From assembly GCF_032854445.1 (NCBI RefSeq), contig NC_088297.1, forward strand, positions 8,853,375 through 8,917,374: 64,000 nt of DNA. Direction: 5' to 3'. Position numbers and translations under genes: made by a program. This stretch comes from Liolophura sinensis. Taxonomy: Eukaryota > Mollusca > Polyplacophora > Chitonida > Chitonidae. Of this stretch, positions 25,210-60,522 are shown piece after piece. Position 1 is the first letter of the stretch; each line of letters begins with the position of its first letter. The notes beneath the pieces are model-generated. The model made no database searches. It saw only the letters and a list, made by a program, of their open reading frames with translations, and was not told where the DNA came from.

Positions 25210-25407
25210 GATTCATCGAATGACTAGGACCCACTTTTACGCAGACTGCGCACATAGCTAACATGGGGGTATCACTAGAGAGGGTGCAGTTCAAATTTGC
25301 CTCCATCATTGGAGAGCTCTGCAGTGATCCAGATGTATTGTCACAGTTTGCAGTGTGGTTAGATCTCAGACTAGCAGAGTACAAGTTAAAAGGGGCCATA
25401 TCACTGG
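25210..25407 (+). CDS. Gene 2, first coding exon (N-terminal module)
   Basis: The exon starts after acceptor gttttattggcag, with 53 nt of 5' UTR. The ATG is at 25263, and 145 coding nt end at donor CTGG|gtgagt in phase 1. The product begins MGVSLERVQFKFASIIGELC and contains VLSQFAVWLDLRLAEYKLKG. It has the same coding length and the same donor phase as genes 1 and 3. The 5' UTR acceptor implies at least one noncoding upstream exon. The family is unrecognised; the module would be shared by all gene 2 isoforms. Confidence 0.86.
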
Positions 25408-25485
25408 GTGAGTGAAAATATTATGTACACGTAACAGAGGTGATTCTACTAAGATAACTATTTACAGATTTCAAATATGAAAGTA

Positions 25486-25612
25486 AAGGTAAGGGAAAGG
25501 TACATGTACATGTAAGGGAAAGGTACATGTGCATGTAAGGGAAAGGTACATGTGCATGTAAGGGAAAGGTACATGTACAGGTAAGGGATAGGTACATGTA
25601 CAGGTAAACTAC
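25486..25612 (+). repeat. 23-bp minisatellite, about 5 units
   Basis: The unit AAGGGAAAGGTACATGTGCA plus TGT repeats with small variants in gene 2 intron 1, about 80 bp past the donor. Confidence 0.88.
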
Positions 25613-26301
25613 ATGTACATTATGAAATTAAGCCACATTTATATGTATATGTTCAGATGTACGCCACATGTACATTGCATGTAGAATGTAAGCCACAGTT
25701 ACGTATAAAATGTACTTGTCGCGGAAGTATATCTCGAGACGAGAAAATACTGGCTGGAGTGAGACTCAAACTCTCCATTTGGGTGTCTAGCCTGACCCCT
25801 TTATTAGTTGAGCTACAAAGCCAGATGGGAACGACTCATTAGATAGAATAACTATAATAGCTGTTCATACAGACATGTTCCCCTTTATACTACTACAAGG
25901 TACCAGTTTTTTGAATTTTTGGCCCAGTCAGTGTTCAGAAAGCACCTGCGATCATCATCAGGGAATGTATCAGTATATACTGAATTGCCACATTCATGTG
26001 TCAGAGTATTACAGGGGGCTGTTCCCTGCCATCACCCTTGATTGGGGCTACATATAGGTGACAAAAAGCATTGAGGCTGTTTTTGAGATTGTTGTCATAC
26101 ATCTGTCAATTGAAAACCATTTCTGAGAATGTGATGTGCATATCTGGCATGAAAAAGTATGTCAGTAACCTGCCAAGGTTCTCTGGTGTTCTCTACGAAT
26201 GAAACTTACAGCTATGCATTGTGCATATGGACAATCCTTCAGTAGGCTTGACATTTTTAAAACAATCCTGAAATATATTAATAAATTCTTTCTCTGGCCA
26301 G
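25613..26301. other. Gene 2 intron 1, remainder
   Basis: A segment at about 25735-25830 looks like a reversed tRNA-like head (GAGACTCAAACTCTCCATTT, TTAGTTGAGCTACAAAG) and may be a SINE fragment, with low confidence. The rest shows nothing recognisable up to the acceptor tttctctggccag at 26301. Confidence 0.35.
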
Positions 26302-26991
26302 ATTGTTCCGGTGAAGAGCCAAACCCATTATGGCTGAAAGGGATCAACAAAGGGAAAAATAAAGCGGTAGATGATCCTGTCACCCCCCACAGATCTAATA
26401 GGACAAGCCGAGAGCGAGCGAGGGACCCCTTCCCTCATCACATGACCTCCCCCAGTCAGACAGAAGCAAATCCAAGCCCCATGGAAAGAATGTCACCGGA
26501 AGTGGTCATCAAGGAAGAGCCATCTGACATTTACCCAATACAGGTTCATGCTCATCAAAATGTGAACGCATCATTCTCTTCTGGCAGCAGACGCAAACGT
26601 TCAGCAGCCGAGACATTAACAGGTGACAGCTGGTCGCAAGAAATTCATGACATTTCCTCATTATCATCATCTTCGTCTCCCAAACACAAACGACTTTCAT
26701 CCACAGGTGATTCCCCATCAAATCAAAGTCTCATGTCAGTTATTGGTGGTTTCCATGACAATGCAGAAGAGAGCACCAGTAAGGGAGATAACTCTTATAA
26801 TCCTCTTGAAAGCAGTGGCAACTCTGCTAGCAATGCTACTGCTATGTACCAAAGTGACATATCACCTGACTTTACTGCTGAGCCTTCATGCAGTTTCAAC
26901 CAACCATCCTCTTCTCAGGACTATGACATAAGCATTCAGGACCCAGCGCAGCAAATTCAATCAGAGTCCTCCGAAAATAGCTCAGCAAATG
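26302..26991 (+). CDS. Gene 2, linker exon (exon 2)
   Basis: This 690-nt internal exon has both borders in phase 1 (acceptor tctctggccag; donor AATG|gtaggt). It begins DCSGEEPNPLWLKGINKGK, then a basic SNRTSRERARD region, the psi-K-x-E motif in VVIKEEPSDIYPI, a nuclear-signal-like SRRKRSAAET, a Ser run followed by KHKRLSS, and NQSLMSVIGG. The C-terminal part is Ser/Asn/Gln-rich and looks disordered. The order of conserved islands is the same as in gene 1. Its donor is the branch point of the locus: each of the eight downstream modules begins with an acceptor of the matching phase. If the donor is not used, translation ends at the stop at 27051. Confidence 0.87.
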
Positions 26992-27077
26992 GTAGGTTTT
27001 GTTCATTTTTTACTCATCATTGTCAAAGTAAGTCTTGCAAAGTTCTAGATTAGCCAGCTTCCGTATTACATATTGTA

Positions 27078-27385
27078 TACTTTAATAAAGCACTTAAATT
27101 TTAAACATAAATGTCCGGTTCCACTCACCATAATGCTGGCCACCATCGTATAAGTGAAATATTCTTGAGTACGGCGTAAAACACCAATCAAATAAATAAA
27201 TAAATAAATAAATAAACATAAACACATGCTGTACATATTGTAGGCCCAATTTCAGAAATAAATTATTTGATCTGGTGTTTTATGCCATGCTCAAGAATAT
27301 TTCACTTGTATGACAACGGCTTGCATTATGGTGAGTGGAACCGGACATTTATGTTTAAAATTTAATTGCTTTATTAAAGTGGAAA
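27078..27385. repeat. Inverted duplication containing a SINE A 3' end
   Basis: The left arm (about 27078-27205) and right arm (about 27260-27385) are reverse complements. Both carry the SINE A tail and, beyond it, the same non-SINE flank (left TAAACATAAATGTCCGGTTC; right GAACCGGACATTTATGTTTA). Arms this similar can form a hairpin of well over 100 bp. It starts about 90 bp after the gene 2 linker donor. Confidence 0.85.
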
Positions 27386-28010
27386 GTTAGCAGGAAAGTG
27401 GGCAGAGTCCAAGGGAAGCCCCTGACCATCTGCAGGTTACTGGTAGATCTTCCGATGTATAGATGTGAGAAAATATCATATGTAATGTATTTCAGCTAAG
27501 TTTTGGTATGTAAAAATGCAAATTCAGAAATACATAAAGACTTTAAAATGACATTTTGATGCCAAATAGTTACAAATGGCCCAATACGTACATGTACATG
27601 TGGGTGGAGGAATTAATCTAGTCTGATGTTGTCATGAACGTCTTTCTGCTAGTTGTGGCTGTTTTATGAACCTTCTTTTTAGAACAGTTGCTGATGCTGT
27701 TTCGAATTACAGGTACATGTAGTGAATGGAGACATCTTGAACTTTGCAAGACTTACATGTTTACATTAATGTCCATTTCTGGCAGATTCAGATTGAGTGG
27801 GTCTGTTATGACTACCAGAACTCCGTATATATATGTAGTATCTTTGTTTAATGAGGCTAGTGCTGTCCACCATCATTTACTTTTATTTACTGAGCCATAC
27901 ATGCCAAATACACATGTACATCATGATGACATGATGACAACTTCGAGAAAAATTACGTCCTCAACATGGACATGTGCCTTCAGGTCTTTGTTCTAATACC
28001 ACAACATCTC

Positions 28011-28148
28011 CGTCTGTAGGCGGGAAGGTCTGCAGCAGTTTGCAGATGGTCGTGGGTTTCTCCCGGCCTCTGCCCGGTTTCCTCCAACCATAATGCTGCC
28101 TGACGTTGTATAAGTGAAATATTCTTGAGTACAGTGTAAATACCCCAA
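28011..28148 (+). repeat. SINE family A, 3' half
   Basis: The fragment begins inside the GGGAAGGTCTGC block and runs through GATGGTCGTGGGTTTCTCCC to GTATAAGTGAAATATTCTTG. There is no A-rich tail. Confidence 0.83.
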
Positions 28149-29650
28149 TGAGAACTTCTTGAAATGTCTGGTGAAATATCTGCTCCATGTCCTCAGTAGA
28201 CATGATAAACTAGATTACATGCTTACAATCTCATAATTATATGTGAACTTGATTGAGCATGACTTTTCTTTAGGAGAACTTAGAACACAATCGTTCAAAA
28301 ATGTTTATGATTTGAAACACCCGACTTAAATCGGGGTACATCTAACTGATGTGGCCCTCAGATACAATATCTTTTAACTTAGATAATTTTCGTACAGTTT
28401 CTCTGATGTAACATGCATATAAATGTATATATACATGTATATATATATGTATTTATCTCATATCAAACGAAATACTCCGCTTTTCATTGGATAACAACTG
28501 GGGTACAGATATGTTCTCTAATCCTTCAGGCGAGGTCTAATGTGTCTGCTGAGTAGGTTATCTCTCTTTGTTGGGCTGTGAATACAATGGTCACATTGCT
28601 GAAGCGATTCACCTATACATCAGCCTTCTGCACTGAACTGATGGGTCTTTGCAGGATAGGTTTGTTTACGTGGTAGGATACAGAAATATATGGTTTTTCA
28701 TATACGCCATATATATCCGTATCCTGTCGCTGAGTAACCGTGTAACAAATAACATCCCTGTTCAGTTGATATGACATGAAATAATCATGGGCATATCATG
28801 TAATACAGTTTGAGTTTAATTTTGCAGGAGTGATGAAGTTAGTAAGGACATATATATCCATGTCATTTGTGGCCATTGTCCATGTGTCATTTATGAACAC
28901 AAAGTATATACAAGACTTACATGTATGCCACCTGCTGCTAACTGTAGAATTTAAAGTTTAATTATGTGGGAATCAAGTCTGAAGTTTTATAAGAATATGG
29001 TCATTTGTGACCAAACTTCATGAATGCAAAGTACATACACTGTGTATATACAATGCCTACATCACCTAATGGGGTGACCATGGAATTTAAAACACAACTC
29101 TAAACTTTTGAAGTTAACTTCATGTAGCTCTATTTAGTGGTGTGTTCACAACTGTTGAACAATTCATGTTGAGTGTATGTTTAGTTGTCTGATGTTTGAT
29201 TAGTAATTGATACTGGAAGAGTTGTTTGCCTGTTGTTTGAGGTGAAAATATGAACGTGGTTGTGCATGTATATAGATGATTGTACACTATACATGAAGAA
29301 GTGTGCAATATACGTACATATTTGGACTAGATGTAATATGTGCTGAATTTTTGTACCAGTACACAAAGCCACATGTACATGTATTAACCCTTTATATCCT
29401 GTTCCAAAACAAAGCAGCTTGAACTGTTGAAGCATATTTACTAATAGGGCGAGTTGTGTGTGACGGAACAAGGGCTTAACTGTGGATTTTCAAATATGAA
29501 TCTTAGCACAGTGACCAAGTACAGGGGAATGAAATACAGCAGTTTGGCTGTTGTTTAAAAGTGACATTTGTACGGTATGTATATGAACTTGTACTTGCTC
29601 ATTACTCACAATTCATACAGGTGTGTTTTTAACTAATTACCTGATTAGAC
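28149..29650. other. Gene 2 intron, no recognised gene
   Basis: AT-rich DNA with ACATGTATATATACATGTAT-type simple sequence near 28425-28455 and imperfect duplicates of a CATTTGTGGCCATTGTCCAT-like segment near 28860 and 29000. No exon is supported. Confidence 0.4.
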
Positions 29651-29990
29651 TGGCCCTGTTGGCTCAGTTGGTAGAGGGTCTGCTTTGGGGGCGGAAGATT
29701 TTAAGACTTTAAAAGAGGACGTTTTTACATGTAGCTTCCTCGTTTGGCATTCAGCATTAAGGGGAAGTACAACGACTGGTTGACCCGTATCAGTATAATG
29801 GCTAGGGTGGGACGGCTCACTTGCCTTGAGTAAGTCGTCTCAGTGAAGCAGCACTAGATAAAAGAGCGGTGGAAATCTGCCCTGCTATAAGGAGGCACAT
29901 TAAGTGCACTCTAAGGACTCCCTTCTTTGTCATATGGCTTAAGAATGGTTAAGTACGACATTAAACCCCCAACAATCACTCACTTACCTG
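29651..29990 (+). repeat. SINE family B
   Basis: The head GGCCCTGTTGGCTCAGTTGG retains the A box but has lost the B-box region (it jumps to GGAAGATTTTAAGACTTT). The body and CTCACT tail are present. Confidence 0.88.
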
Positions 29991-30044
29991 ATTACCTGTA
30001 CACATACTTACATGTAATAATCAGGCACGTACTGTATGTTCACA

Positions 30045-30150
30045 ACCCACAAATGGTCGTGGGTTTCCCTCCCGCTATAATTGTTGCTGTCATATAAGAG
30101 AAACACTCTCGTGTATAGTGTAAAACACCAGTCAAACAAATTAAATACAA
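30045..30150 (+). repeat. SINE family A, 3' fragment
   Basis: Diverged remnant: AAATGGTCGTGGGTTTCCCT to GTGTAAAACACCAGTC. Confidence 0.7.
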
Positions 30151-30431
30151 ACCTACAGTCTGTATGTATGTGATGATTCCACATGCAGGGAGGCCTGCTA
30201 CATGTAGCATTAAAAACAAATCAAGGATGATGTACAATGTACATCTTTCCCTTTGATATCATGTAACAGCAGTTTAATGAACAGTGCTTCTAACTTGAAA
30301 CATATTACTGTGTAGTATAACTTGTATATGTATGTGTTGTGGGATTGGGATTTATGTTGAGTGACTTTGCCTCGTTTCTGTAGCACTACTTTTATGACAT
30401 AAATGGAAAGTGGTTACATGTAATCTCCAGA

Positions 30432-30693
30432 GACATCGCGGGGCTCAGTTGGGTAGCGTAATGACCCAGGAGTCTCTCACCAATGCAGTCGCTGTGTGTT
30501 CAAGTCCAGCTCATGCTGGTTTCCCTCTCCGGTCATATGTGGGACGGTCTGGTAGCAACTTGCGGATGGTCGTGGATTTCCCCCAGGCACTGTCCGGTTT
30601 CCACCAACCATAATGCTGGCCGCAGTTGTATAAGTGAAATATTTTTGAGTACAGCATAAAACACCAATCAAATAAATAAATAAATAAATAAAT
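30432..30693 (+). repeat. SINE family A with 5' deletion
   Basis: The head GACATCGCGGGGCTCAGTTG is shortened (part of the A-box-to-anticodon region is missing). The body and an AAATAAATAAATAAATAAAT tail are intact. It is followed directly by a 250-bp unit that is also found after the SINE at 39926. Confidence 0.88.
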
Positions 30694-30946
30694 CGACAAA
30701 AGACATCACTGATGCCACTTGCAAATTTTATGCAGAAAAAGATGTAGATCGACATTCAGTAGTAGTGGTGCTACGCCTAAATAAGTCTGCTCATGTCGCC
30801 CATTTTTTAGAAATGGCAGACTTGTCGACTGGTGGCAGTGGTGTACATACAAGTGGTGCATGCATAATATAAGGAATATGGCCATTGCTGTGGCAGCCAT
30901 CTTGGCTGGCAGGAAAATTTCCACCCGTGAAACTGCTAAGCCTTTT
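30694..30946 (+). repeat. Unit F, copy 1 (SINE-linked duplicate)
   Basis: The segment from GACATCACTGATGCCACTTG to GCAGGAAAATTTCCACCCGT recurs at 40196-40436, about 90% identical by eye, in both cases immediately after a SINE A tail. It has no recognised coding capacity. Confidence 0.85.
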
Positions 30947-31152
30947 GTTTTTATAGACCACAAATTCGTAACACCAAGAAAAAATCCTTCATGATAGGAA
31001 ATGGTAAAGCGTCTCTTTCATTGGATAAGTTGTCTTTATGTCCGGACCTGACAAATCAATGCAGAATTAGCGGTTCAAATGTTCAAACAACGAAGCATAC
31101 AACACACTCTTGAGCAGAACTACAAGTGCATGCATACTGATTACTGTGTACG

Positions 31153-31270
31153 TTGTTCATGTCAGTGACTTAAATGGCTGTCATTTAAGTCATTGTTCAT
31201 GTCAGTGACTTAAATGGCTGTCATTTAAGTCATGGTTCATGTCAGTGACTTAAATGGATGTCAGTTAAGT
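31153..31270 (+). repeat. 40-bp tandem repeat, 3 units
   Basis: GTTCATGTCAGTGACTTAAA followed by TGGCTGTCATTTAAGTCATT repeats three times, just upstream of the first CENP-B-like exon. Confidence 0.9.
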
Positions 31271-31603
31271 GGTAGAAATATGGTCAGTCCTATTCATGCA
31301 TATCTTAAGGATCTTGTTCTAGGAGTTGGTATTTTTTTTTTTTTTTGCTCCCCCCTTATCTTCTTGTGGAAATATAAAGGCCTGAGAAGAGCGTGGTTTG
31401 TGTTTTAATATAATTTAATTCTATGTTGTGGGAGATTCAAACTGATTTCTTGAGTCTGTTGATTTGATTAGCTCATGGTCAATATTTGATAAAGGGACTT
31501 GATTCTTACCCCATGTTCGTATGTGGAACTGGTGCCTATTTTGGCAATAAAATGTTGCTTTTTTTTTCATGTGCAGCATTTTGTTTTCACATTTATTGCA
31601 CAG

Positions 31604-32100
31604 CGATCGATGTGCCTGATCTGAGTGGAGGCGCTGAGTGGAACAAAAGACGGCGTGTTAGCCTGTCAGGTGCACAAAAGCGAGAAATTTGTGCGTACAG
31701 TGATGCCCAGAGGAAGGCAAGTCAGCAGAATATTGCTGACCATTTCACCGTGAAGTGGGGATTTGAAATGAAAAGAAGAACTGTTGGTGACATTTTGTCT
31801 GAACGCGAAAAGTGGGTAGCAAATGATGACACCAACAATAAAGGCCGACGTGCCCAGCAGGAAAAAATGGAGAAGGCACTGTTTTCGTGGTTTTTGGGTG
31901 AAGCTGCGCGCAGTCGTACAGTTACTGAGGGTGACCTGAAGACCAAAGCTAAAGAAATTGGTAAAAAAGGTGGAATAGGCAAGTTTTCTTACTCAAACGG
32001 ATGGCTACAACGATTCCAGAAACATTCCAGGTTCATCTTAAGAAACCCAGATGTAAGACGCAGAAGCGAAAAGGGCTGGAGTCAATCCAAAAACAATTAA
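31604..32100 (+). CDS. Gene 2, candidate terminal exon: CENP-B-like DNA-binding module 1
   Basis: This 497-nt exon follows acceptor catttattgcacag, enters in phase 1 and ends at a TAA. After a short leader (AIDVPDLSGGAEWN) it has a basic start, KRRRVSLSGAQKREICAY, and a first helix-turn-helix continuing to RRTVGDILSEREKW. A second helical unit follows: KALFSWFLGEAARSRTVTEG, LKTKAKEIG and SNGWLQRFQKH. This is the two-part CENP-B/pogo/jerky DNA-binding domain (CENP-B_N plus HTH_Tnp_Tc5). The DDE transposase domain is absent, so it would be a DNA reader only. An upstream in-frame ATG at 31486 lies before the acceptor and is not needed. No AATAAA was seen close downstream, so its 3' end is uncertain. 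Confidence 0.82.
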
Positions 32101-34602
32101 TGATGGGCGTAAGATGTCAGAAGAAACCATCGCAAAATACTGCCTGTCGTGGATATTGTATGCTTTTCACGTCACTGCACTTTTCCGTTACAACAGCAAC
32201 AGTTAGTATGAGGAAGTCTGGTAGAGGTATCTCATCCAAAATAGTACTGGGAAAATTTGGTGATTGGCTGCACGATAAAGCTCCATTCCTAACTTCATAC
32301 CATTGTAACGAAAAAAGCATGCAACAACAGCAGTTATTTTTTTAAGTTTGGCTCAGTGGAAAAGAATATAGGGTAACAGTAACCTTGCCAGGGTGCAAGG
32401 CAACAGGTTAGCTATCACTAACATTAGAGGATGCTAAGTGGTAGGTAAATAACTGACACAAACACAAAAATCAGAGTGAGTGATATGTATTGCTGCCATC
32501 TGGGTGACCAACCAGGCTGAAGACTGCAGTGGTGACCTCAACTCCTCGCTACCCTGTTCACATTTGAACCAGACTTTTATAGCCCCTGCCGGCCCTTGGA
32601 GAAAGACCTTAGATTAATTACCCAGCTGTGGGTACAATGACTTAACTAAGATTTTGTTTCCAAAACACTGGAAACACTGCACTTAAAGGCAGTCTAAAAG
32701 GTACACGTAAAAATATTTAACTGCTACTTAATAAGCTATTTATACTCCAAAGGTAAGCATAATATGAAAAGCCACAACCTCCACTTTTATAACTACGTCA
32801 CAATAACTTTTTAAATATTATTCCACCTGCAAACTAATGACTATGATGATAAAGTACAAGTTAATACCAACACAGTCATACGCAATATCCCTACCTAACA
32901 TGACTCACTAATAATGAATTTCTTCCCCAAAGTCTTTAAACCTAACACATCAGTGTTGCCAAAAAGGCGCTAAGCCAAATCCTAACTACAGTCTTAATAC
33001 ATAATTCTACAAGTTACATTATTTTGCAGAAATGATGCTTATAGATATTTATGGATATTTATAGTTGCTTATAAACATTGATGTTCAGTTTTTGCACCCA
33101 TCAGCACCGTCATTTACAATGAGAAGGTCAGTTTTGATGATTTCTGTAGCAGGTTTGTCATATACCATGTATGCTGTGTGAAAAAGGCACTGACGAGCTC
33201 CACCATAGGGGAGTTTCAAGTTCAGACCCTTTTATCGCCACAGGTAAAACAGTCTTACTGTATCACGTGACATGTTAAAAATGTGAGGCAACCACATGCA
33301 GTTTTGATCATATTTATCATAACATGGGCGCCTGGACAAAGTTTCAGAAAAGGTAATTTAGGGTAGACTATTAATGGAGAAGGCTAAGGAGCTACTTGGT
33401 ACGTGTTTTCCACCAGAAATGTGACCCTTTATTCCCGCACTACTGTCATGACCGAAACAAAGTCTTCATTTATACACAGTGTGGGTTATGAGGTTTTCCT
33501 CACTGAAAACAAGTTATCCACACCCATGTAGGCTATGATGGCATGGACAATGAATAATCCTGTACACATTTCAATACTCAAACATCAGTGCAGCATAATG
33601 AAGTGCTTTTAAGCCATTGCCTGTACAATATGTTCATCAAAGATTTCTTGACCTCTTGTGTATTTATAGGTTTTTTAAAGTTCAATAACATGAAAAGGTA
33701 TTTTTCCATTTTGTCAGGATTTTGTTACACTTGCTTACTCTGTTGAGAGCTATTTAAGACATATATGTACATACATGTATATATATATGTAAAATCACTT
33801 GGAATTTGAAGCAAGTTTTTCCTCACTCAATACTGTAGATAGTCATGGCAATAGAGAACTTGTTGAAGTCTACTAGAAATGCAAATTTATCACACTGGCT
33901 TTCTTTGTTTGTGCTAATTGCAAACATGAGAAATTTTTAACTCTGTCTTCAAGACTGTCAGTGGGAAGGTCCTTAACAAAACATGTTAAAACATATTTGG
34001 TCATTTTAACACTTGACAGTCGTCAAAAGAGCCAGATTGGTTAGATATTACTGATCAGTGTGGTCTATGTGTCCTGGGACGAGATACCGTTTCTAGTCTG
34101 GTGTCTTTGGTGGTGTCATGTCTGGTGTCTTTAGCGTCATGGCTTGCCAGTGAGGCAAAATGTCTGGTACAAAATATGACATCATTTATGGTGGAAATAC
34201 ACTGGAAATGACATAAAAAAAGGAAAAGAAGTAAATAACATGAATATAATTAGTAAGTAGGGCTTTTTTCTGGAAATTTTGTACTTATATCTACACAGAA
34301 AAATGCCATCAAAATATGCTTGATTTAACACGGAAACATGCAAAAAGGTTGAGGAATTACAGTAGTAATAAATATTACACATACATGTAGCACCTTGCTG
34401 TTCTGTGTTTCTCTACAAGTGTTCAGCAGTGGGGAAAAAAATCCATAAATCTCTTACTGCGGGTAAGAACTTGTTTCTGTCTATCTGGTGCACCCCCCCC
34501 CCCCCCCCAGTATTTAGCTTTTTTTGTTGTTATTGTTGTTGTTTTTTTGACAATAAAGTTTAATACAGATAAGTCTGAGACATTTGTTTTGTCTGTTGTC
34601 AG
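32101..34602. other. Gene 2 intron between the CENP-B-like exons
   Basis: 2.5 kb without a supported exon. A segment near 34085-34170 (GGTGTCATGTCTGGTGTCTT) resembles the middle of SINE family C and may be a remnant. A 34183-34375 segment ending GGTTGAGGAATTACAGTAGT resembles family E. A C-tract lies at about 34493-34508. Confidence 0.4.
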
Positions 34603-35099
34603 ATGACTTTAGTGTAAGCCACTGTGCCTTGACCTCGTCCAAAAAACGGAAAGTTCTCACCCTTCAAGAACGCATGAAGGTGATTCAAATGGCAGAGAAA
34701 TGGAAAAAAAGCACAAGAAAAATTGCAAGGGAACTTGGCGTCGGCAAATCTCAAATCCAGATGATTCTGAAACGACGAGACAAAATGTTGGAGAGTTTCA
34801 ATAGCAATGTGCCTGGCCACCGTAAGCGACATCGCTTCTCTTGCAACAATGACATGAACCAAATGTGTTGGGAATGGTTCCACAAGTTGCAAAGTCGAGG
34901 TGTTCGCATCACAGGCCCACAGCTACAGGTCAAAGCCTTGGAACTTGCCAACAAACTCGGGAACAAGTCATTCAAGGCCTCCAGTGGCTGGTTGGAATGT
35001 TTCGTGAAGCGCAATAACATATCGTTGGGAAAAAAACCAACACCACAAACTCCATCGGTAAGGATCAGACATCAGTCTTACGATCGCCGAAAGGTTTGA
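34603..35099 (+). CDS. Gene 2, candidate terminal exon: CENP-B-like DNA-binding module 2
   Basis: This 497-nt exon follows acceptor tttgtctgttgtcag, enters in phase 1 and ends in TGA. The leader DDFSVSHCALTSS precedes a textbook first helix-turn-helix: KKRKVLTLQERMKVIQMAEK, then RKIARELGVGKSQIQMILKR. The second unit reads MCWEWFHKLQSRGVRITGPQ, LQVKALELANKLGN and ASSGWLECFVKRNNI. It is closer to canonical CENP-B, jerky and TIGD proteins than module 1. There is no DDE catalytic part. Its coding length equals that of module 1, although the sequences are far apart. ATTAAA at 35318 is a possible polyadenylation signal. Confidence 0.85.
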
Positions 35100-39552: not shown

Positions 39553-39650
39553 AGGTGATTCAGATTCCTATGCAGACAGACATCACAGATCTGAAGTCAC
39601 GTCCACCTCGTGCGGGAATTATGTCAGCGTCTCTAGCTGAAAGGTATAGT
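39553..39650 (+). CDS. Gene 2, BEN module exon a
   Basis: This 98-nt exon follows acceptor tctgtgttttacag in phase 1 and ends at donor TATAGT|gtaagt in phase 0. It encodes a 33-residue segment beginning EVIQIPMQTDITDLKSR and ending SASLAERYS, which leads into the BEN domain. An alternative donor 8 nt earlier (AG|gtatag) would put a TGA/TAG stop at the start of the next exon, so the GTAAGT site is preferred. This is the only gene 2 C-terminal module built from more than one exon. Confidence 0.72.
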
Positions 39651-41391: not shown

Positions 41392-41644
41392 ATGGTAGAA
41401 CTGGTCACTGGCACAGGGGTGTATCTGGACCAAGGTTCCTATAACCTGGCCTTAACCAAGTGTTGTCTGCCACCCAGAAAGACACGCCCAAAGAAAGTAG
41501 AACAAGTTAAGCACAACGATGGGCGGCCCGCGGCCCGTTACCTCTTGGGTATTTTCTTCTCTGCTGAAGATTTGGCCAACAGCACTACCTCGCACAAGTC
41601 TGGACGACCAAAACTAGATGATAGAATAATACAGGCTATCAAAG
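41392..41644 (+). CDS. Gene 2, BEN module exon b (main part of BEN domain)
   Basis: This 253-nt exon follows acceptor gaattctttcacag in phase 0 and ends at donor AAAG|gtatgt in phase 1. Its product has the BEN-domain pattern in order: MVELVTGTGVYLDQGSYNLA at the start, ARYLLGIFFSAEDLANST in the middle, then SHKSGRPKLDDRIIQAIK. BEN domains bind DNA or chromatin partners in insulator and repressor proteins (Insensitive, BEND family, NAC1). The ATG at 41392 is simply the first codon of the exon and is not a gene start. Confidence 0.85.
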
Positions 41645-42970: not shown

Positions 42971-43122
42971 TTTTCTGTGTGAAGAATTCCTCCTGTACAC
43001 TTTCTGAGATCAGCATCGCCATCCGCTGTAAACTCACAGGCTTCAGAAGCAGGAGGCTACAAAAAGCTTATGCAGGCAGATCTGAGGGATATGACCACTG
43101 CCAGAATATATCACACACGTGA
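42971..43122 (+). CDS. Gene 2, BEN module exon c (end of BEN domain, stop)
   Basis: This exon is too short for a standard ORF scan. It follows acceptor atcttttttgcag, enters in phase 1 and runs 152 nt to a TGA. Joined to exon b it continues the BEN domain with VFCVKNSSCTLSEISIAIRC and KLTGFRSRRLQKAYAGRSEG. The run ITSEI/AIRCK-like (SEISIAIRCKL) fits the last BEN helix. The tail ends in ISHT. AATAAA at 43289 gives a 3' UTR of about 190 nt, the cleanest gene end in the window. Confidence 0.8.
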
Positions 43123-44807: not shown

Positions 44808-45328
44808 ACCGTTGCGGTGATTCTTCCATCCGCCAAGTGTCTCCACTTCGACAGACGACAGGAGGACCTATCACGTGGTATCGTGAGGGCGGGTTTTACC
44901 ACAGCCTTGAGGACAAAGCGGAAAGTAACAGGTTTCGTCGATCCAGGATAAAGAACCCAGAGACCTACCCTAAAGCGCGACTCAGTAATTTGGTGTACGC
45001 TGTGTCAGGATTCGAAACCTGGCTATGGTCCGGGCCTTACAACGACAAGCGCTGGATCTTTGAAATACCTCCAAAAACATTGGACAACTACCTGACGGAG
45101 TTCTTCACCACTATTAAGAGACCGTCCGGTGCTGATTACAAAATAGACTCATTCCGATCGCTTCGTTCCAACATCGAACGCTACCTTAAAGAATGCGATT
45201 ATCCCGAATCCATCACTCGTTCCCACCTGTTTTCGCAGAGTCAGAATGCTTACGCCAACAGAACGGCACAGCTCTCTGAGAAAAGCAGAGAAGTTCAAGA
45301 ATCGACACTCAGTGATATACAACTCTAG
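44808..45328 (+). CDS. Gene 2, candidate terminal exon CB1: Crypton-type core-binding-like module
   Basis: This 521-nt exon follows acceptor cattggtttcttcgccag, enters in phase 1 and ends in TAG. Leader: RCGDSSIRQVSPLRQTTGG; basic patch: RFRRSRIKNPETYPK. Core: RLSNLVYAVSGFETWLW, FEIPPKTLDNYLTEFFTTIK, SLRSNIERYLKECDYPESIT and FSQSQNAYANR. It keeps the aromatic and leucine landmarks seen in all seven core-binding-like exons. The PS-G-x-x-YK turn (RPSGADYK) is present. No catalytic domain follows. Open frame continues upstream of the acceptor to 44684 by chance; the phase match and the family start argue for the acceptor at 44807. Confidence 0.82.
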
Positions 45329-47243: not shown

Positions 47244-47743
47244 TGATATCAGGACTTGGTCAGAGAAGCGATGACGTGATGTTCGCTCTGTCCACAGCTT
47301 TTCGGGTGAACCGCACTAGCGAGAGGCCCGGAACAGGGAACGACTCGAAAACCGCCGACTCGGTGTCTTGTAAACAAGCCAGGAGGCTCCGCATCCGGCG
47401 CATCAATGAAATCCCGAAGAAATCCGTGGTGAATATGGTCAACGCTGCCACGACGTTTGAACGTTGGCTTTGGACGCAGCCTTACAACGACCTTAGGCCA
47501 GTCAACGAGATCCCAGCGGATGAGCTGGACGCGTACCTTTCGGAGTTCTTCGCAAATATTAAAACGGAGTCCGGGAGTGATTTTAAGTATGACTCCTTCC
47601 TGACCCTACGCTCTCATCTCGAACGATTTCTGAAGGAGACGGGATATCCCTGTTCCATTATCACTGATCAAGAGTTTCGCAGTAGCCAAGCCGTGTACAA
47701 GTCCAGAACATCGTATCTAAGCTCGAAGCATAGCAACACCTGA
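47244..47743 (+). CDS. Gene 2, candidate terminal exon CB2: Crypton-type core-binding-like module
   Basis: This 500-nt exon follows acceptor ggacttctgttccag in phase 1 and ends in TGA. After a Ser/Thr-rich leader comes the basic KQARRLRIRRINEIPKK, then VVNMVNAATTFERWLW, NEIPADELDAYLSEFFANIK, TLRSHLERFLKETGYPCSI and FRSSQAVYKSR. GC content and third-position C/G use are higher than in the flanking introns, consistent with selected coding sequence. A degenerate GCTAGCAACACC array begins right after the stop and would fall in the 3' UTR. AATAAA at 48366 follows the array. Confidence 0.83.
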
Positions 47744-50910: not shown

Positions 50911-50917
<7 letters not shown>

Positions 50918-50963: not shown

Positions 50964-50967
<4 letters not shown>

Positions 50968-51237: not shown

Positions 51238-51365
51238 GGTGTTTGTTGTGTAACTGAATACTGCTGAGTCTTGTTTCGTACCGAGTGAAATCCCGAGAAT
51301 GCACACTCGGGATTTGACTCGGTAGGAAACAAAGTTCAGTGGTATCGGATTACACAACAAACACC
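51238..51365. other. Foldback sequence with 59-bp arms
   Basis: The left arm (51239-51297) starts GTGTTTGTTGTGTAA and ends ACCGAGTGAAATCCCGAG. The right arm is its reverse complement at about 48 of 59 positions. The loop is only 7 nt. The ends (15 bp) and the centre (more than 16 bp) match best. It may be a short foldback transposon or a transcribed hairpin. Confidence 0.8.
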
Positions 51366-52108: not shown

Positions 52109-52728
52109 CGGACGAGTCTTCTCGTGGCGATGTTCGGCGCTCTTCCTTGGGTGGTCACAGAGGACCCTGGACGTCAGGAGCACCTGTCAATCCTCGGAGA
52201 GTTGATGGTGCTTCCATCCGGCGCAGCTATATCGTCAACGTCGAGGATATTCCCAAGCAAACTGTCACCAACATGATCTCAGCCGCCGGCAACTTCGAGC
52301 GCTGGCTTCAGGCGAGCCGTCACGGAGATGGCCGGAGTATCACGACCATTCCACCGGCGATGCTTGACTCGTACCTTGTGGAGTTCTTCACCGCCGTGAA
52401 GCGACCGAGTGGTGAAGACTATAAACTCCAGTCACTGCAGACGCTGCGCTCGCACCTTGATCGTTATCTAAAGGAATGTAAATACCCAGAGTCCATCACC
52501 TCATCGCAGGTGTTTTTTCGAAGCCAAAAAGCATTTGCGTCCAGAAAACATGAGCTGATGAGCCAAACGACATCAAATGAGGGAGAGACGCGCGTTAACC
52601 ATATGTTCATGGAACGTGCTTTGGTGGCTGATATAAATTCGCGCCAACGTGACAGCCGAGCCAAGCTCAGTGATGCAGACGTAACTTTTGCAGGAATCAG
52701 TGAGAACTCCACATGGCCCAGCCTTTGA
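52109..52728 (+). CDS. Gene 2, candidate terminal exon CB3: core-binding-like module with long tail
   Basis: This 620-nt exon is the longest of the set. It follows acceptor cctttcatttgttag in phase 1 and ends in TGA. The leader ADESSRGDVRRSSLGGHRGP resembles the SRGDSV leader of gene 1 exon A. Core: TVTNMISAAGNFERWLQ, TTIPPAMLDSYLVEFFTAVK, RPSGEDYK, LRSHLDRYLKECKYPESITS and FFRSQKAFASRK. The last Trp of the usual RWLW is Gln here. After the core it has about 55 extra residues (MSQTTSNEGETRVNHMFMER onward) not seen in the other modules. Coding GC is clearly above the flanks. No catalytic domain. Confidence 0.82.
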
Positions 52729-53190
52729 GGATTTTGAAACTACATTCAAACACTCAAACATTTTACCTCAAGAAGCGTTCTTCACATTCCATGGCTATGT
52801 ATTGTGTGAAAAACAAATTGTGTCATATAAATTACACATAAATGAGTCGAAATAATATACCAGCTCATCGTCTTAATTTCTGGTTTGTGTAAAGTAAGTC
52901 ATTGTAATTGAAATGTCGGTGGAGCTTATGCATGCTGCTGTATAAAGTGTGTGATCGAATCTACTCTTAGCCTTAAATTAGGAATGTGTTGAATGGCGAC
53001 AGTGTACCCCGGGGGCTCTACATCGTTCCTTCTACTCAAAAGGGCCTTTGTGTAACTGAATATACTGTTGAAAACAGCATTAAATATAAAGCACTCCGGC
53101 ATGTAAATAGAAATTAAACCCAGAGTAGAAACGACATTGTGATAATTGGCAACTGATCAGCATACTTACATCATATCTTACACTGAGGAT
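52729..53190. other. DNA after CB3
   Basis: No canonical AATAAA is seen within 400 nt of the CB3 stop. Nothing else is recognised. Confidence 0.35.
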
Positions 53191-53303
53191 TTATTTATTT
53201 ATTTATTTGATTGGTGTTTTACGCCGTACTCAAGAATATTTCACTCATACGACGGCGGCCAGCATTATGGTGGGAGGAAACCGGGCTGAGCCCGGGGGAA
53301 GCC
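53191..53303 (-). repeat. SINE family A, 3' half, minus orientation
   Basis: From the TTTATTTATTTATTTATTTG tail through CGGCGGCCAGCATTATGGTG to GAGCCCGGGGGAAGCC, then cut off. Confidence 0.9.
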
Positions 53304-53857
53304 AACGACCCTTACACTGAGAAAGCTCTGTAACTAAGGCTTGACTGAGATGCAGTTTTATACATTGTTAAGTACATGCATCAGTCGGTTATGTGCGTAG
53401 AAGATCAAGTATTACAGTAAATCTAATGACCAAGAAGTGTATCCCGGAAGAAGCAACATTGTTCAGAGACGACATGTTCGGTGAAATGATTGTTTCTAAC
53501 AAAACTGAAATTTTGAATTGTTGACAGTTCCTCAGCAGGCATATGACACCAATACAAAGTTGAATTTTGTTACATTTGTTTTGTTACTGTGCTCTTTGGT
53601 ATTGACCGTTCTTGTGGAATCAGGGGCTAACAATCAAATGGGTGGACTGAAATACTGGTTGCATACACAATACATGTGAATTAAATGACGCAGATATAAC
53701 ATGTATTCTGGTATGTCGAGGGCAGTGTTCGTGTGACGCGGAGAGATATAAGATTACTGCAAATTTGACGTCAAGTTCCCTGAAAAATTATCACGCTTTG
53801 CAGAGTTTTATATCGCATAAAATTACAGCATTTATGGTGTATTAGTGACGAGCGGGT

Positions 53858-54085
53858 ATACGGGTCTTTACTTTCAATCGCTAGGACGCACGAGGTGTGG
53901 GTTCAAATCCGGTCTTAGTCTGACCGGGAATTTGTAGACTCGCTCGCTTTTACTGTTCTTCGGGCCTTGGTGATAATAACCGGTCATATCGCTCGTGGAA
54001 AGGTTTGTCAGTAACTTTCCAAGTACCTGTGGTTTTGCACTGGTCATTCCGGTTTCCTTTACCCATGAAACTTATCCAGTGAAAA
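53858..54085 (+). repeat. tRNA-derived SINE, family D
   Basis: The tRNA-like head has GGGTTCAAATCCGG (B box) after a GACGAGCGGGTATACGGGTC A-box region. The body reads CTCGCTCGCTTTTACTGTTC, CCTTGGTGATAATAACCGGT and TTGTCAGTAACTTTCC. Partial relatives lie at 45345 and 57790. Confidence 0.6.
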
Positions 54086-54227
54086 AAGTTTCAGTAACAA
54101 TAAACAACAATAGAAAAAAATACGTCGTAAGGGCCAAATGGTAAATCTCAAGACGCAGTGTAGATGTACACAATTAAGAGAGTGGTGTATGTGGTAAGCT
54201 ATACATGTTGCATTGTCAGATCAGAAT

Positions 54228-54566
54228 TTTTAGAGCGTCCGCTTCAGGAGCGGTAGATCCAGGATCAGTCCTGAGTCGAGTCACACCTAAGACCTTAAAA
54301 GAGGAAGTTGTAACTTCCTCGCTGGGCGTTCAGCATGATGGTGATAGTGCAATGATTGGTTGACCCGTATCAGTATACCGGCTCGGGCTGGGCGGCTTAC
54401 TTGCCTTCGGTAAGCCGGCTCAGTGAGGCAGCACTAGATAAAAGAGCGGTGGAAATCCGTCCTGCAACAAGAAGGCACATCACATGCACTCTTAAGAATT
54501 CCTTTGTCGTCATATGACTGAAAAAGTGCTGAGTACGACGTTAAACCCCAAGCACTCACTCACTCA
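54228..54566 (+). repeat. SINE family B, head-truncated
   Basis: It begins inside the head at TAGAGCGTCCGCTTCAGGAG and is complete from there to the CACTCACTCACTCA tail. It ends about 120 bp before the CB4 exon. Confidence 0.92.
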
Positions 54567-54685
54567 TTTAATGAGAGAGCTTTTTGGGGGCTGTTTCAGG
54601 TAGTTTGAATTTGCTCTTGTTTTCATCGAAACATATCCACCCAGGACACGTCCCCTCAGCATGATTTGTTCGTTTATGATTGCAG

Positions 54686-55179
54686 ACACGGGTTTTAGAG
54701 AAGGGCCGTCACCCCTGGTTAAACCAACGACGTCTGGACAGGGTGGGGATACAGAATTGCAGCCAATTCGCTGGCAGAACTCGTTCTCTCTGATCACAAA
54801 CAAAAGGAACATGAATGAGCTGAGACGAAGCAGGATCCGAAACAGACACAGCCTGTCTCAGAACACCGTGGATAATTCCGTGAGCGCCGTCAGGACGCTG
54901 GAACACTGGATCTGGCAGCGACCCAAGTGGAAGGAGAACCGATGCGTCAACGATATTCCACCGGAGGAGTTGGACAAGTATCTAGTAGAGTTCTTCTCCT
55001 CGTTGTCCCACTACAAGACCTACTCCTTCAGCGTTCTGCGCAGCAACCTGAAGCGGTATCTGGAGATCACGGGCTATCCGGCCTGTATCAAAAGCTCTCC
55101 CGTATTCGAAAACAGTCGAAGGGCATGCTCGGAAATGCTGCGCAAATTTAATATGGTCAAAGAGTCGGGTTTCCATTGA
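54686..55179 (+). CDS. Gene 2, candidate terminal exon CB4: core-binding-like module with shortened loop
   Basis: This 494-nt exon follows acceptor tttatgattgcag in phase 1 and ends in TGA. Basic patch: NKRNMNELRRSRIRNRHS; core: TVDNSVSAVRTLEHWIW, NDIPPEELDKYLVEFFSSL, SVLRSNLKRYLEITGYPACI and FENSRRACSEMLRK. The usual turn between FF...IK and YK (K-T/R-P-S-G-x-x) is missing: the chain passes directly from FFSSL to SHYKTYSF, about five residues shorter than the others. FERWLW is replaced by LEHWIW. It is the most diverged copy but has an intact frame and borders. AATAAA at 55326 gives a short 3' UTR. Confidence 0.8.
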
Positions 55180-55325
55180 TGTATTGTAAAGGCAGTGTTA
55201 TGACATTCGGACTTTCTTTTTCTCCGTACTGTAGATAATCCGTAGCAACACTAAACTACTTGCTCATCCTGAAACAGATCGACCGAATTTACTGTTCGTT
55301 TACTGAAACGTCGACCCGAACATGC

Positions 55326-55331
55326 AATAAA
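55326..55331 (+). terminator. Polyadenylation signal for CB4
   Basis: AATAAA lies 147 nt after the CB4 stop, with a T-rich stretch following within 15 nt. Confidence 0.5.
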
Positions 55332-55448
55332 GCCATCTAGTTTTTTTTTTTCAACATAAGGAATTTATCCTTTAGAGCCCTGTGCCATGTGTTCAATGTC
55401 AAACGTACGTTCCTGCAATGAAGTAGATCTGACTACAGAAAGCCATAA

Positions 55449-55480
55449 CGTGGTTAGCGTGCTAGTGCAGCTCAATGCCA
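55449..55480 (+). repeat. Very short SINE A head remnant
   Basis: CGTGGTTAGCGTGCTAGTGC AGCTCAATG resembles the GGTTAGCGCGCTAGCGCAGC segment of the SINE A head. Isolated; low confidence. Confidence 0.35.
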
Positions 55481-56814
55481 CTATATATGGAATTGTAGCA
55501 GGAATATTGAGTTTCTTTTTTTTCTCACATGGTTAGACCGTCTAATGAAGAACATACTCCTATCTTCACTTTTCCAAAAAGCTGGTAAAGAAATTCTACT
55601 TTCAACACTACCAGTATCTGTCCTCAAAATAAGAAAAAATAGAGTAAATGTTAATTAATTTGTGGCGTACAAATCAAAACAAATCTTCCCGTGAAAGATA
55701 TATGGGCTTAGAAGTTCCTACCACCAAAATCGAGTGGAAAATCTCATCAAAGTGACCACCAAGACATCGCAAGCCCAGAGATACCCGCTGAGCACAGGGG
55801 GCATGCTTGGACAGGGCATTTGTACCGTCCCCACCGAAGTGCTTCCATATGAATAATGTGTTTTTGTTTTCAAGTTATCAAATTATTACAATACTTGAAG
55901 CGATTCCTTTTGTTGATATTCGCTGTACCCTTTTTTCGGAAACCAGTTGTGCATCATACACTGCCAAAACAATCCACCACCCATTTACTGTTACTGCCTG
56001 CGGATGTAGTACGCGTTGTGCAGGAGAAAAACCAACGTGTGACCAGTGGAAGATTTCTCATGCATATCTTTAAACAGCTCTATATCAAGCAATACCTTTT
56101 TGGAATGACATTTCGAAATTTGACTTTCTGATATACAATTCTAAGACTCTCCACTTTTTTTGTGTTTGGTTAATTTTTATGTCGATTCTGGAGTCTGTAT
56201 GAAGCCAGCTATTGTTTTTGCAGAAAAGCGAAGAACACATTAAGAAAAAATCAAAAGTGCGCCATTGCAATTCCTGTCGTTATTCGTTAAGATCATTTTG
56301 AATTATATCAACCTATTGGTAAACATTACCATGACATCAAACATTAAACGTGTATTTATTGTAGGAGTCAGATAGAGAAAAACAGCAAACTGTTGTTTTA
56401 GTGCATACTGTTTAGTTTAATATAATGCTGTATGATAGGAACAGTTCAGTTGAAGTTACGGTTGCTCAGTGTCCATACAACTATTAAGTTGCTAACATGG
56501 AACTTGTGTGTGATTTATCACATGTAATAATTTACACGGGCTTTACAACTATTCTATCCTCATCTGTTTTGATTAATTTTCCTTTCTTGTAACTTTGATT
56601 AAATTTTTTGTAACCAATATATTCGGATATTATTGGTGTTCTTTTTTAGTGTATGTGTTTAGTACAATTACCCTATTGCCCAATTTCACGTATGATTGTT
56701 TCATTTAACGTTAGCATATATCCACTCTATGTCATGCCATAAATGGAATGACCCCATCTATGTAGCACGAGACATCTTATCTCGTTTTATTTTTCTCCTG
56801 TATGCAGTGGGTCG
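55481..56814. other. DNA between CB4 and the family C element
   Basis: An 88-codon frame (55807-56073) has no recognisable motif, no matching splice borders in the locus phase and low coding bias. It is not called as a gene. No repeats are evident. Confidence 0.4.
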
Positions 56815-57112
56815 GGTCATACGAAATGGTACTTGTCGCTGCCTCCCTTGTCGCGCTGCAGTGAGACCTTAGGGCAAGGAAACAGGGCTGGTTGTCCCGG
56901 TGTTAGTATAATGTGACAGGGTGGTGTGTCATACCTGGTGTCTTGGGGACGATATCTCAGTGTGCTTGAGCATGATGTCTCAGTGTCGGCAGCACTTTGG
57001 GGGCATGACTCACTGTATGTACATACAAGTAGACACAATACAGGTACACACCCCTAATGGCTCCTCGTCCTCATATGCCGTACTTCGTTGGTTACGACGT
57101 AAAACCACATGC
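56815..57112 (+). repeat. SINE-like family C, copy 2
   Basis: CTTGTCGCTGCCTCCCTTGT, TCCCGGTGTTAGTATAATGT, GGTGTGTCATACCTGGTGTC and GGTTACGACGTAAAACCAC match the element at 43925 in order. Confidence 0.6.
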
Positions 57113-57789
57113 GTATATATAATACTTGTTGTGTTACTGAATGTTGTAACAAGGTCTGCAAAGAAAGGAAGTGTTACATCCGATTTTCCGAAGACTGTAC
57201 ATGTCTATGTAATAATCAAGGTTATTAGACATCCAGGTTAGGAACTAAAATAGAAAACTGTAAAAGTGGTCTACTGGTAAATAGTGTATTTGACACCAAC
57301 GTTGCGGTTATAATCTATCAGCTTTAACTGTGTAAAAGGTTATACCTAGGAGCAAGCTATACACACACCAGGACCTACTTAACTGGCATCTTTTCAATAA
57401 TTTTGCATGAATAAAATGTGAGGACCGCGACGTTAGTGTCAAATACACTATTTCTCAATACACCAGTGTTACAGTTTTCTATTTTATACCTGTATGTATT
57501 ATCAAGTGCCCAACAGCACACAGCAATCAATATAGGCACAAACCCTACACAAGCTAACTGTCCCTGCAACATGGCGATCATCTAAACTTTTTGACTACCT
57601 AGATTGTCATACGCCACATTTCCTACAAGTTACATTTTGTATGGATACACATGTATATACGCATTAATTTTTTCCGTCCCATTTTCGGACAGCGAAGTCT
57701 TCTAGATTACCTTGCTTAATTACTCTTTTGGTCTGGGTAGGATTAGACGGCGCTGTCTTGTGTGGTTTTACATGAAATTCGTCCGAGAT

Positions 57790-57950
57790 CACCGTCCACC
57801 AATATGATATATGTCACGTGGGAGAGTTTTCCAGTAACTAACCGACACACTGGTTTTCTCCACCCACGCATAAAACTGATCTCTGTAGGAGACAAATACT
57901 GATGTACGGCGTAAAAATAAATCAAAACAGTCAAATAAATCAATAAATCA
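57790..57950 (+). repeat. Possible SINE family D 3' part
   Basis: GTCACGTGGGAGAGTTTTCC AGTAACTAACC and GATGTACGGCGTAAAAATAA followed by AAATAAATCAATAAATCA. It adjoins the 27-bp array directly. Confidence 0.45.
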
Positions 57951-57954
57951 TACA

Positions 57955-58412
57955 CATTCCCCTTTGTGACCACTCCATACACATTCCCCTATGTGACCAC
58001 TCCATACACATACCCCTATGTGACCACTCCATACACATTCCTCTATGTGACCACTCCAGACACATACCCCTATGTGACCACTCCATACATATTCCCCTAT
58101 GTGACCACTCCATACACATTCCCCTATGTGACCACTCCATACACATTCCTCTATGTGACCACTCCATACACATTCCCCTATGCGACCACTCCAGACACAT
58201 ACCCCTATGTGACCACTCCATACACATTCCCCTATGTGACCACTCCATACACATTCCTCTATGTGACCACTCCAGACACATACCCCTATGTGACCACTCC
58301 ATACACATTCCCCTATGTGACCACTCCATACACATTCCCTTACGTGACCACTCCATACACATTCCCCTATGTGACCACTCCATACACATTCCCCTATGTG
58401 ACCACTCCATAC
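57955..58412 (+). repeat. 27-bp minisatellite, about 17 units
   Basis: The unit CCATACACATTCCCCTATGT GACCACT varies at a few sites (ATTCCTCT, ATACCCCT, CAGACAC). It is open on both strands because the period is divisible by 3, so the 156- and 187-codon frames here are not evidence of genes. Confidence 0.95.
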
Positions 58413-58499
58413 GTGTTATGTATGATCACTTCAGACAGTCATCTGTATATGAGATCACTTTATACAGTCTTCTTTGCGACCATTTTATGTAGTCTTCTA

Positions 58500-59705
58500 T
58501 GTGACCACTCCATACAGTTATGTATGTGAACACTCCATACAGTTATGTATGTGAACACTCCATAGAGATTTTGTAGGAACTTCATACAGTTATCTATGTG
58601 GCCACTTCATACAGGTTTCGTGTGAACATTACTTACATTCGTCTATGTGACCACTCCATACAGTTATGTATGTGAACACTCCATACAGTTATGTATGTGA
58701 ACACTCCATAGAGATTTTGTAGGAACTTCATACAGTTATCTATGTGGCCACTTCATACAGGTTTCGTGTGAACATTACTTACATTCGTCTATGTGACCAC
58801 TCCATACAGTTATGTATGTGAACACTCCATACAGTTATGTATGTGACCACTCCATACAGTTATGTATGTGAACACTCCATACAGTTATGTATGTGAACAC
58901 TCCATAGAGATTTTGTAGGAACTTCATACAGTTATCTATGTGGCCACTTCATACAGGTTTCGTGTGAACATTTCTTACATTCGTCTATGTGACCACTCCA
59001 TACAGTTATGTATGTGAACACTCCATACAGTTATGTATGTGAACACTCCATACAGTTATGTATGTGAACACTCCATAGAGATTTTGTAGGAACTTCATAC
59101 AGTTATCTATGTGGCCACTTCATACAGGTTTCGTGAGAACATTTCTTACATTCGTCTATGTGACCACTCCATACAGTTATGTATGTGAACACTCCATAGA
59201 GATTTTGTAGGAACTTCATACAGTTATCTATGTGGCCACTTCATACAGGTTTCGTGTGAACATTTCTTACATTCGTCTATGTGACCACTCCATACAGTTA
59301 TGTATGTGAACACTCCATACAGTTATGTATGTGAACACTCCATAGAGATTTTGTAGGAATTTCATACAGTTATCTATGTGGCCACTTCATACAGGTTTCG
59401 TGTGAACATTTCTTACATTCGTCTATGTGACCACTCCATACAGTTATGTATGTGAACACTCCATAGAGATTTTGTAGGAACTTCATACAGTTATCTATGT
59501 GGCCACTTCATACAGGTTTCGTGTGAACATTTCTTACATTCGTCTATGTGACCACTCCATACAGTTATGTATGTGAACACTCCATACAGTTATGTATGTG
59601 AACACTCCATAGAGATTTTGTAGGAACTTCATACAGTTATCTAGGTGGCCACTTCATACAGGTTTCGTGTGAACATTTCTTACATTCGTCTATGTGACCA
59701 CTCCA
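58500..59705 (+). repeat. Nested higher-order repeat (121 bp plus n x 25 bp)
   Basis: A composite unit with ATAGAGATTTTGTAGGAACT, CAGTTATCTATGTGGCCACT, GGTTTCGTGTGAACATTTCT and TACATTCGTCTATGTGACCA recurs eight times. Distances between successive ATAGAGATTT starts are 146, 196, 171, 121, 146, 121 and 146 bp. All equal 121 plus a multiple of 25, the extra being copies of CCATACAGTTATGTATGTGA ACACT. Confidence 0.95.
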
Positions 59706-59749
59706 TAAACAATTTGTGTGGTCACTTCATACAGCTGTCTGTGTGACCA

Positions 59750-59842
59750 ATTCCCGGGGGAAACCCATAACCAGGAGTGAGTGGCTCCTGGGTCATTGCG
59801 CCACGCTGGTACGCTAACCACCTCGACCACGGAGGCCCCCAT
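59750..59842 (-). repeat. SINE family A head fragment, minus orientation
   Basis: Reversed head: GGCTCCTGGGTCATTGCGCC to ACCACGGAGGCCCCC, with most of the body missing. Confidence 0.85.
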
Positions 59843-60082
59843 GCACCGTTATACATGTACGTGACAGGCGGTGTTGTGAATATGGATCTGCATATGTATG
59901 TGACATATGGGAGGCGATATAGAATACGAATGGCTTTGTATTTCAACACATATACAATTATTTAACAACCAACAGTTAATAAGTACTTAGATATGAATGT
60001 TAAAAAAAAAAATCCATGCAAGGCTTACCAAATCACATAACTCACTTAAAAAAACTTGACATATTTTCGTTATTATTTGCAG

Positions 60083-60522
60083 ACAGTTCGGTGTGGAGAC
60101 CAACAGAACCCATCCGTGTGACATGCGGCCTATACACTGATCACGCCATCACCAGGCGACAGGAAATAGAACGCCGGAACTTTATACGATCCCGGATTCG
60201 GAACGCCGACCAACTGCCCATCGCCACCATTCGGAACATTGTCACTTGCGTCCGAACATTCGAACGTTGGTTGTCTGAGGGCCCATACGGTGACAACAGG
60301 CCAATGGTGGAGATTCCCCCGGCGGAACTCGATCAGTTCTTGGCGGACTTCTACAGGAGCATAAAAACTCCACAAGGAACCGAGTACAAACTCCAGTCCA
60401 AACTCTGTTTACGATCTAATTTAGATCGTTATCTTAAACACAATGAGTATCCGTCCATAGTTTCTTCGTCCGTTTTCCACAAGAGTCAGAATGCCTTTCG
60501 TGGATGGAAGGGTCAGTCGTGA
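60083..60522 (+). CDS. Gene 2, candidate terminal exon CB5: Crypton-type core-binding-like module
   Basis: This 440-nt exon is the shortest of the set. It follows acceptor cgttattatttgcag in phase 1 and ends in TGA. The basic region ERRNFIRSRIRNADQLP precedes ATIRNIVTCVRTFERWL, VEIPPAELDQFLADFYRSIK, TPQGTEYK, LRSNLDRYLKHNEYPS and FHKSQNAFRGWK. It resembles gene 1 exon B in details (ATIRNIV, FYR, K-TP-G-EYK), suggesting these two are closest relatives across the two genes. AATAAA at 60576 follows within 60 nt. It is the last module before gene 3. Confidence 0.83.

Follow-up and report, generated by a model that had tools for sequence, protein, structure and literature searches.

In the chiton Liolophura sinensis (NCBI RefSeq assembly GCF_032854445.1; 609 Mb in 632 contigs), a stretch of 64,000 nucleotides of contig NC_088297.1 (C3:8853375-8917374, hereafter the window) contains a gene, here called gene 2 (window positions 25210-60522), in which an exon encoding a 48-aa N-terminal unit (the platform) and a linker exon are followed by eight C-terminal modules, all on the same strand. 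Two of the modules are of the Tc5/CENP-B type, one is BEN-like and spread over three exons, and five resemble the core-binding domain of Crypton recombinases. This arrangement, proposed in an initial annotation made from the DNA letters alone, was borne out, and all eight module acceptors (8/8) match the phase of the linker donor. An own stop for each module, likewise claimed there, was found in each of the seven single-exon modules, and the BEN-like module carries its stop in its third exon, exon c.

Domains of the modules, platform and linker

The Tc5 helix-turn-helix (HTH) family PF03221 exceeds its curated Pfam cut-off in both Tc5/CENP-B modules of gene 2 (43.4 and 61.9 bits); the second module also matches CENP-B_N (38.2 bits), whereas the first matches HTH_ABP1_N (26.8 bits) instead. 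The Crypton module is predicted to fold as a Cre-type core-binding (SAM-like) domain. On the structural aligner's list for such a module, rows 22-23 and 25 are N-terminal domains of phage or archaeal integrases, row 24 is unrelated, and row 21 is the protein Phi3T SroF. QRICH1 is the only Pfam family matched by these modules at E <0.01, yet under its cut-off, and a Protein Data Bank sequence search with the Crypton alignment yielded nothing within an E limit of 10. No catalytic recombinase family of Pfam was matched in the Crypton modules, and the five in gene 2 end 9-168 nt past the matched domain. As judged from predicted fold and sequence, most modules correspond to a Crypton-type tyrosine recombinase cut down to its core-binding half, the catalytic half being absent. 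The module classes named in the initial annotation thus hold for the two Tc5/CENP-B modules by Pfam and for the Crypton type by predicted fold, but the BEN label falls under the Pfam cut-off, with PF10523 reaching 20.6 bits (cut-off 23.2) across 39 residues in a module joined by hand from its three exons.

The 48-aa platform is modelled as a two-helix hairpin (predicted local distance difference test score, pLDDT, 88.6), and this predicted structure probably serves in dimerisation or recruitment. With E up to 10, no Pfam family, BTB included, was matched by the platform and linker of gene 2 or of gene 4 (a sister gene described below), and the platform alignment found no match in a Protein Data Bank sequence search at the same limit. 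Among viral contigs, 90 pattern matches to the platform yielded no confirmed relative (0 of 90). When eight linkers were compared, all were found to begin with a stretch resembling (D/E/V)(C/S)(S/T)GxxPxPxWL and to contain RKR somewhere; [VI]KxE occurs at the same position in six of the eight, followed by P in five of these, and six of the eight carry a motif resembling NQSLxSVIG. The corresponding VIKEEP of the gene 2 linker is a stretch that we take to be SUMO-consensus-like. These motifs would suit a nuclear regulator.

Exon phase, genome-wide family and selection

The extended locus (the window plus 100 kb on each side) contains seven platform exons with linkers, those of genes 1 to 7, and 19 intact Crypton modules. 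With acceptors scored by a simple generic matrix, 19 of 21 modules in the extended locus have a best-scoring acceptor in phase 1, compared with 122 of 312 control open reading frames (ORFs). The overall count was 22 of 24, but pipsqueak, C2H2 and HTH modules were set aside because they had been noticed partly via a phase-1 filter; the BEN module was not ranked. Likewise, in a second, distant array the best acceptor is in phase 1 in 17 of the 19 modules taken from the 23 assigned to its platform. At the donor side, a GT stands one base past the last full codon in 45/45 platforms. The linker being phase 1-1, a direct join of platform to module would also keep the frame.

A whole-genome search with the platform exon and an E limit of 1 gives 45 matches, all free of stops (35 on C3, 7 on C7, 1 on C6 and 2 on C1). 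Two genome-wide searches for Crypton modules, which scored the best 150 of 280 and the best 150 of 282 candidates and hence give lower bounds, together list at least 193 modules, with no internal stops in the 150 listed by each search. Every listed module (193/193) shares its strand with the first platform found upstream of it, within 94 kb (median 19 kb), and none sits away from a platform. A reversed orientation would have broken this same-strand rule for 112 of the 193; we give no probability for the agreement because tandem duplicates are not independent. Among the listed modules, at least one is assigned to 35 of the 45 platforms, at least two to 29, at least five to 14 and at least ten to seven, the largest array having at least 26 on one platform. 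Four further modules (window 72396, 75364, 116085 and 159228) were found by a local hidden Markov model (HMM) only and stand outside the 193. Ten platforms have no listed Crypton module; one of these (gene 7) has a module found by the local HMM only, two have pipsqueak domains and one an HTH, and for six of the 45 no module was identified among listed Crypton matches, local HMM matches, pipsqueak and HTH domains.

The repertoire extends beyond the domains of gene 2. Gene 6 has no Crypton module and carries in their place a pipsqueak HTH (PF05225, 39.8 bits against a cut-off of 20.4) and a pair of C2H2 fingers, and gene 5 has, besides its Crypton modules, an unclassified HTH-like module (window coordinates 138674-138955; L026:4674-4955, +). 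This last has four genome matches, two of which (itself and C3:2007692) lie downstream of platforms, the second behind the platform at C3:2002188, which is without a Crypton module among those listed. Of 46 pipsqueak domains in the genome, eight are within 150 kb of platforms, all eight downstream on the platform strand; of 16 Tc5 domains, two are within that distance, both in gene 2. By resemblance, the terminal modules across platforms represent five or more types of DNA-binding domain. The initial annotation had singled out one locus that combines three families: gene 2 is as it described, but is one of 45 platform matches, and sister platforms add pipsqueak HTH, C2H2 and unclassified HTH modules. 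Nine pairs of platforms less than 20 kb apart, on C3 and C7, are head to head (e.g., genes 1 and 2, genes 6 and 7), which suggests that such pairs share promoter regions.

Across 40 platforms, the difference at codon positions 1, 2 and 3 is 0.21, 0.08 and 0.48. The ratio of nonsynonymous (dN) to synonymous (dS) divergence over their last 44 codons has a median of 0.06 and a maximum of 0.21 in 371 of 780 pairs, namely those with fewer than 40 differences and positive dS, a choice that favours closer pairs. Thirteen platform pairs encode an identical protein over the 44 codons despite 2-21 nucleotide differences. The corresponding differences for 38 modules are 0.46, 0.39 and 0.67, and in the second array the identity within the three most similar module pairs is 68-69%, at a dN of 0.21-0.24 and a dS of 1.7 or undefined (saturated). 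Read from these codon patterns, platforms and modules are under purifying selection, i.e., long-maintained coding sequence rather than debris.

Terminal-exon choice and its alternatives

Two Drosophila genes, lola and mod(mdg4), have a BTB domain in their common part and C2H2 or FLYWCH domains in their alternative exons. In both, common constitutive exons are combined with a single 3' exon out of many alternatives, with more than 30 isoforms in mod(mdg4) (PMC12692577). Similar to these, the chiton loci have one N-terminal unit and several terminal exons of shared phase with their own stops. In contrast, the chiton platform is only 48 aa long and matches neither BTB nor any other Pfam family, the modules are mostly Crypton core-binding-like instead of C2H2 or FLYWCH, no opposite-strand module is among the 193 listed, and 45 platforms stand against one or two loci. 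Without the BTB feature, the chiton system therefore falls outside the lola/mod(mdg4) group, despite its like working. Gene 2 is very probably a regulator locus of this working type, yielding alternative proteins through choice of terminal exon, with a non-BTB platform and largely transposon-derived domains. We prefer this reading because it best fits the phase, the orientation, the selection and the recurrence of one plan across many loci, which also support the comparable isoform-generating locus proposed at the outset; the joining itself we infer.

Terminal-exon choice is the simplest mechanism. The platform exon and phase-1 linker would be spliced in cis to one of the eight downstream modules, all of which end in a stop of their own; the platform would dimerise or recruit partners, the linker would supply the SUMO-like and basic motifs, perhaps for a nuclear role, and the module would bind DNA and determine its specificity. 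The same design probably recurs at most of the 45 platform exons, the arrays presumably expanding as modules, and also entire loci, duplicate in tandem. Three observations weigh against terminal-exon choice: the module stops are not followed by an excess of poly(A) hexamers, many modules have an internal ATG, and three of the 21 modules (window 60083, 72340 and 109242) have, before the stop, phase-1 donors scoring 0.5-2.2, a range that some real platform donors do not exceed.

The same proteins could arise by trans-splicing, in which case the modules would have promoters of their own and their RNA would be attached to that of the platform. In Drosophila, mod(mdg4) isoforms and some lola ones are made in this way (PMC12692577), and the distances between listed modules and their platforms would leave room for it. 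However, mod(mdg4) has some alternative exons on the opposite strand (PMC12692577), whereas here all of those listed share the platform strand, an agreement that a trans-splicing mechanism would not demand. Because none of the 193 lies on the other strand, trans-splicing, while possible, is unneeded, and we consider it unlikely.

More doubtful still is the proposal to read the modules as separate single-exon genes, or as transposon fragments retained beside platform genes. Crypton and Tc5/CENP-B domains do stem from mobile elements (PMC3212892 and general knowledge), many modules have the internal ATG noted above, and two sequences in corresponding introns might be such remnants. One is a possible decayed Crypton-like stretch with stops, which differs from the modules and lies in the intron that follows the linker of gene 1 (window 12383-13585, -); for this stretch tblastn gave only E 0.16-0.38 (~12.6-13.6 kb), and its neighbourhood at 13466-13768 has no Pfam match. 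The other is an open Crypton-like ORF of 164 aa (L029:3-494, -), longer than the modules, ~2.8 kb past the linker of the platform gene at 19.67 Mb, which scores 27.5 bits for QRICH1 against a cut-off of 30.8. The listed modules, however, are free of internal stops, are all oriented with a platform and never lie away from one, and they share an acceptor phase and show third-position bias; we therefore regard independent genes or fragments as very improbable. Least credible of all is one or a few long multidomain proteins with the modules as consecutive internal exons: the common starting phase and the three donors mentioned above would fit, but in gene 2 all seven single-exon modules end in a stop of their own, and 18 of 21 modules have no phase-1 donor scoring above 0 before it among the two best donors listed per module.

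For the type of module used in terminal-exon choice, the closest precedent is vertebrate KIAA1958, in which isoforms a and b have different Crypton-derived DUF3504 exons, both intron-free, with splicing that its authors state to be unconfirmed experimentally (PMC3212892). Both systems place alternative Crypton-derived exons in one gene. The comparison, which covers the modules only, sets two exons against up to at least 26 per chiton platform, and DUF3504 is a domesticated recombinase domain whereas the chiton modules end soon after the core-binding half. KCTD1, ZMYM2-4, QRICH1 and WOC are likewise host genes with domesticated Crypton recombinase sequence (PMC3212892), and the chiton Crypton modules match Pfam QRICH1 under its cut-off; no interchangeable terminal-exon arrays are described for these genes in the part of that source used here (PMC3212892). 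Judged by titles and abstract openings, none of the papers listed in literature searches describes an array such as that of gene 2.

A wider scheme is conceivable, though we hold it to be somewhat less probable than its opposite: about 45 related dimerising platforms, most of them taking one of several (up to at least 26) terminal DNA-binding modules, would give more than 200 regulator isoforms that heterodimerise across loci via the common platform, with head-to-head pairs perhaps sharing promoters and being chosen cell by cell. To our knowledge, lola-type loci are known from insects and are tied to BTB, and a genome-wide splice choice, if true, would make this the largest lola-type system that we know of, made from a recombinase half-domain that has shed its catalytic function. 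It would then follow that the lola-type design evolved independently on an unrelated platform and is scalable, and that a domesticated recombinase half-domain is among the larger DNA-binding repertoires of an animal. The ~200 related core-binding domains form a natural set for measuring DNA specificity.

Feature coordinates and neighbouring genes

Table 1. Exons and modules of genes 1 to 3 (window coordinates; BEN-like exons placed by eye).
Feature	Position	Strand	Remarks
Gene 1 Crypton core-binding module	155..639	-	last one found on that side
Gene 1 Crypton core-binding module	4410..4855	-	
Gene 1 linker exon	17582..18205	-	phase-1 donor G/GTAGGT (slash, exon end) as in gene 2; linker related to that of gene 2
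Gene 1 platform exon	19514..19658	-	head-to-head paralogue of gene 2; 44/48 residues identical
Gene 2 platform exon (E1)	25263..25407	+	48 aa; coding part from ATG; donor phase 1
Gene 2 linker exon	26302..26991	+	phase 1-1; VIKEEP stretch, RRKR basic stretch, NQSLMSVIG motif
Gene 2 module 1	31604..32100	+	Tc5/CENP-B-type HTH; own stop; alternative exon start 31577, also phase 1
Gene 2 module 2	34603..35099	+	CENP-B_N and Tc5 HTH; own stop
Gene 2 module 3, BEN-like exon a	39553..39650	+	phase 1 to 0; donor GTAAGT at 39651
Gene 2 module 3, BEN-like exon b	41392..41644	+	phase 0 to 1
Gene 2 module 3, BEN-like exon c	42971..43122	+	includes stop
Gene 2 module 4	44808..45328	+	Crypton core-binding-like; own stop
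Gene 2 module 5	47244..47743	+	Crypton core-binding-like; own stop
Gene 2 module 6	52109..52728	+	Crypton core-binding-like; own stop
Gene 2 module 7	54686..55179	+	Crypton core-binding-like; own stop
Gene 2 module 8	60083..60522	+	Crypton core-binding-like; own stop
Gene 3 platform exon	63558..63702	+	linker and seven Crypton modules past window end, ~65.8-96.5 kb

Genes 1 to 7 of the extended locus have 2, 5, 7, 2, 2, 0 and 1 Crypton modules, respectively, and the 100 kb to the left of gene 1 contain no match to platform, linker or module queries. The tree of the 19 modules is weakly resolved, with one of 16 inner branches starred (g1_m2 with g2_m5); it is consistent with a block duplication between genes 1 and 2, without proving it.

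Several repeats lie among these exons. Tandem-repeat arrays with periods of 27 bp and 121-267 bp occupy window 57949-59707, between modules 7 and 8 of gene 2. An interspersed repeat resembling a short interspersed element (SINE) is present in six copies with an AAAT tail (window 6287, 18305, 27161, 30641, 40482 and 53197), where none would be expected by chance, and the window has no Rfam match. Additionally, a 75-bp tandem repeat of ~40 copies in a gene 1 intron (window 7387-10375) is open in several frames, and its long ORFs are probably artefacts of the repeat.
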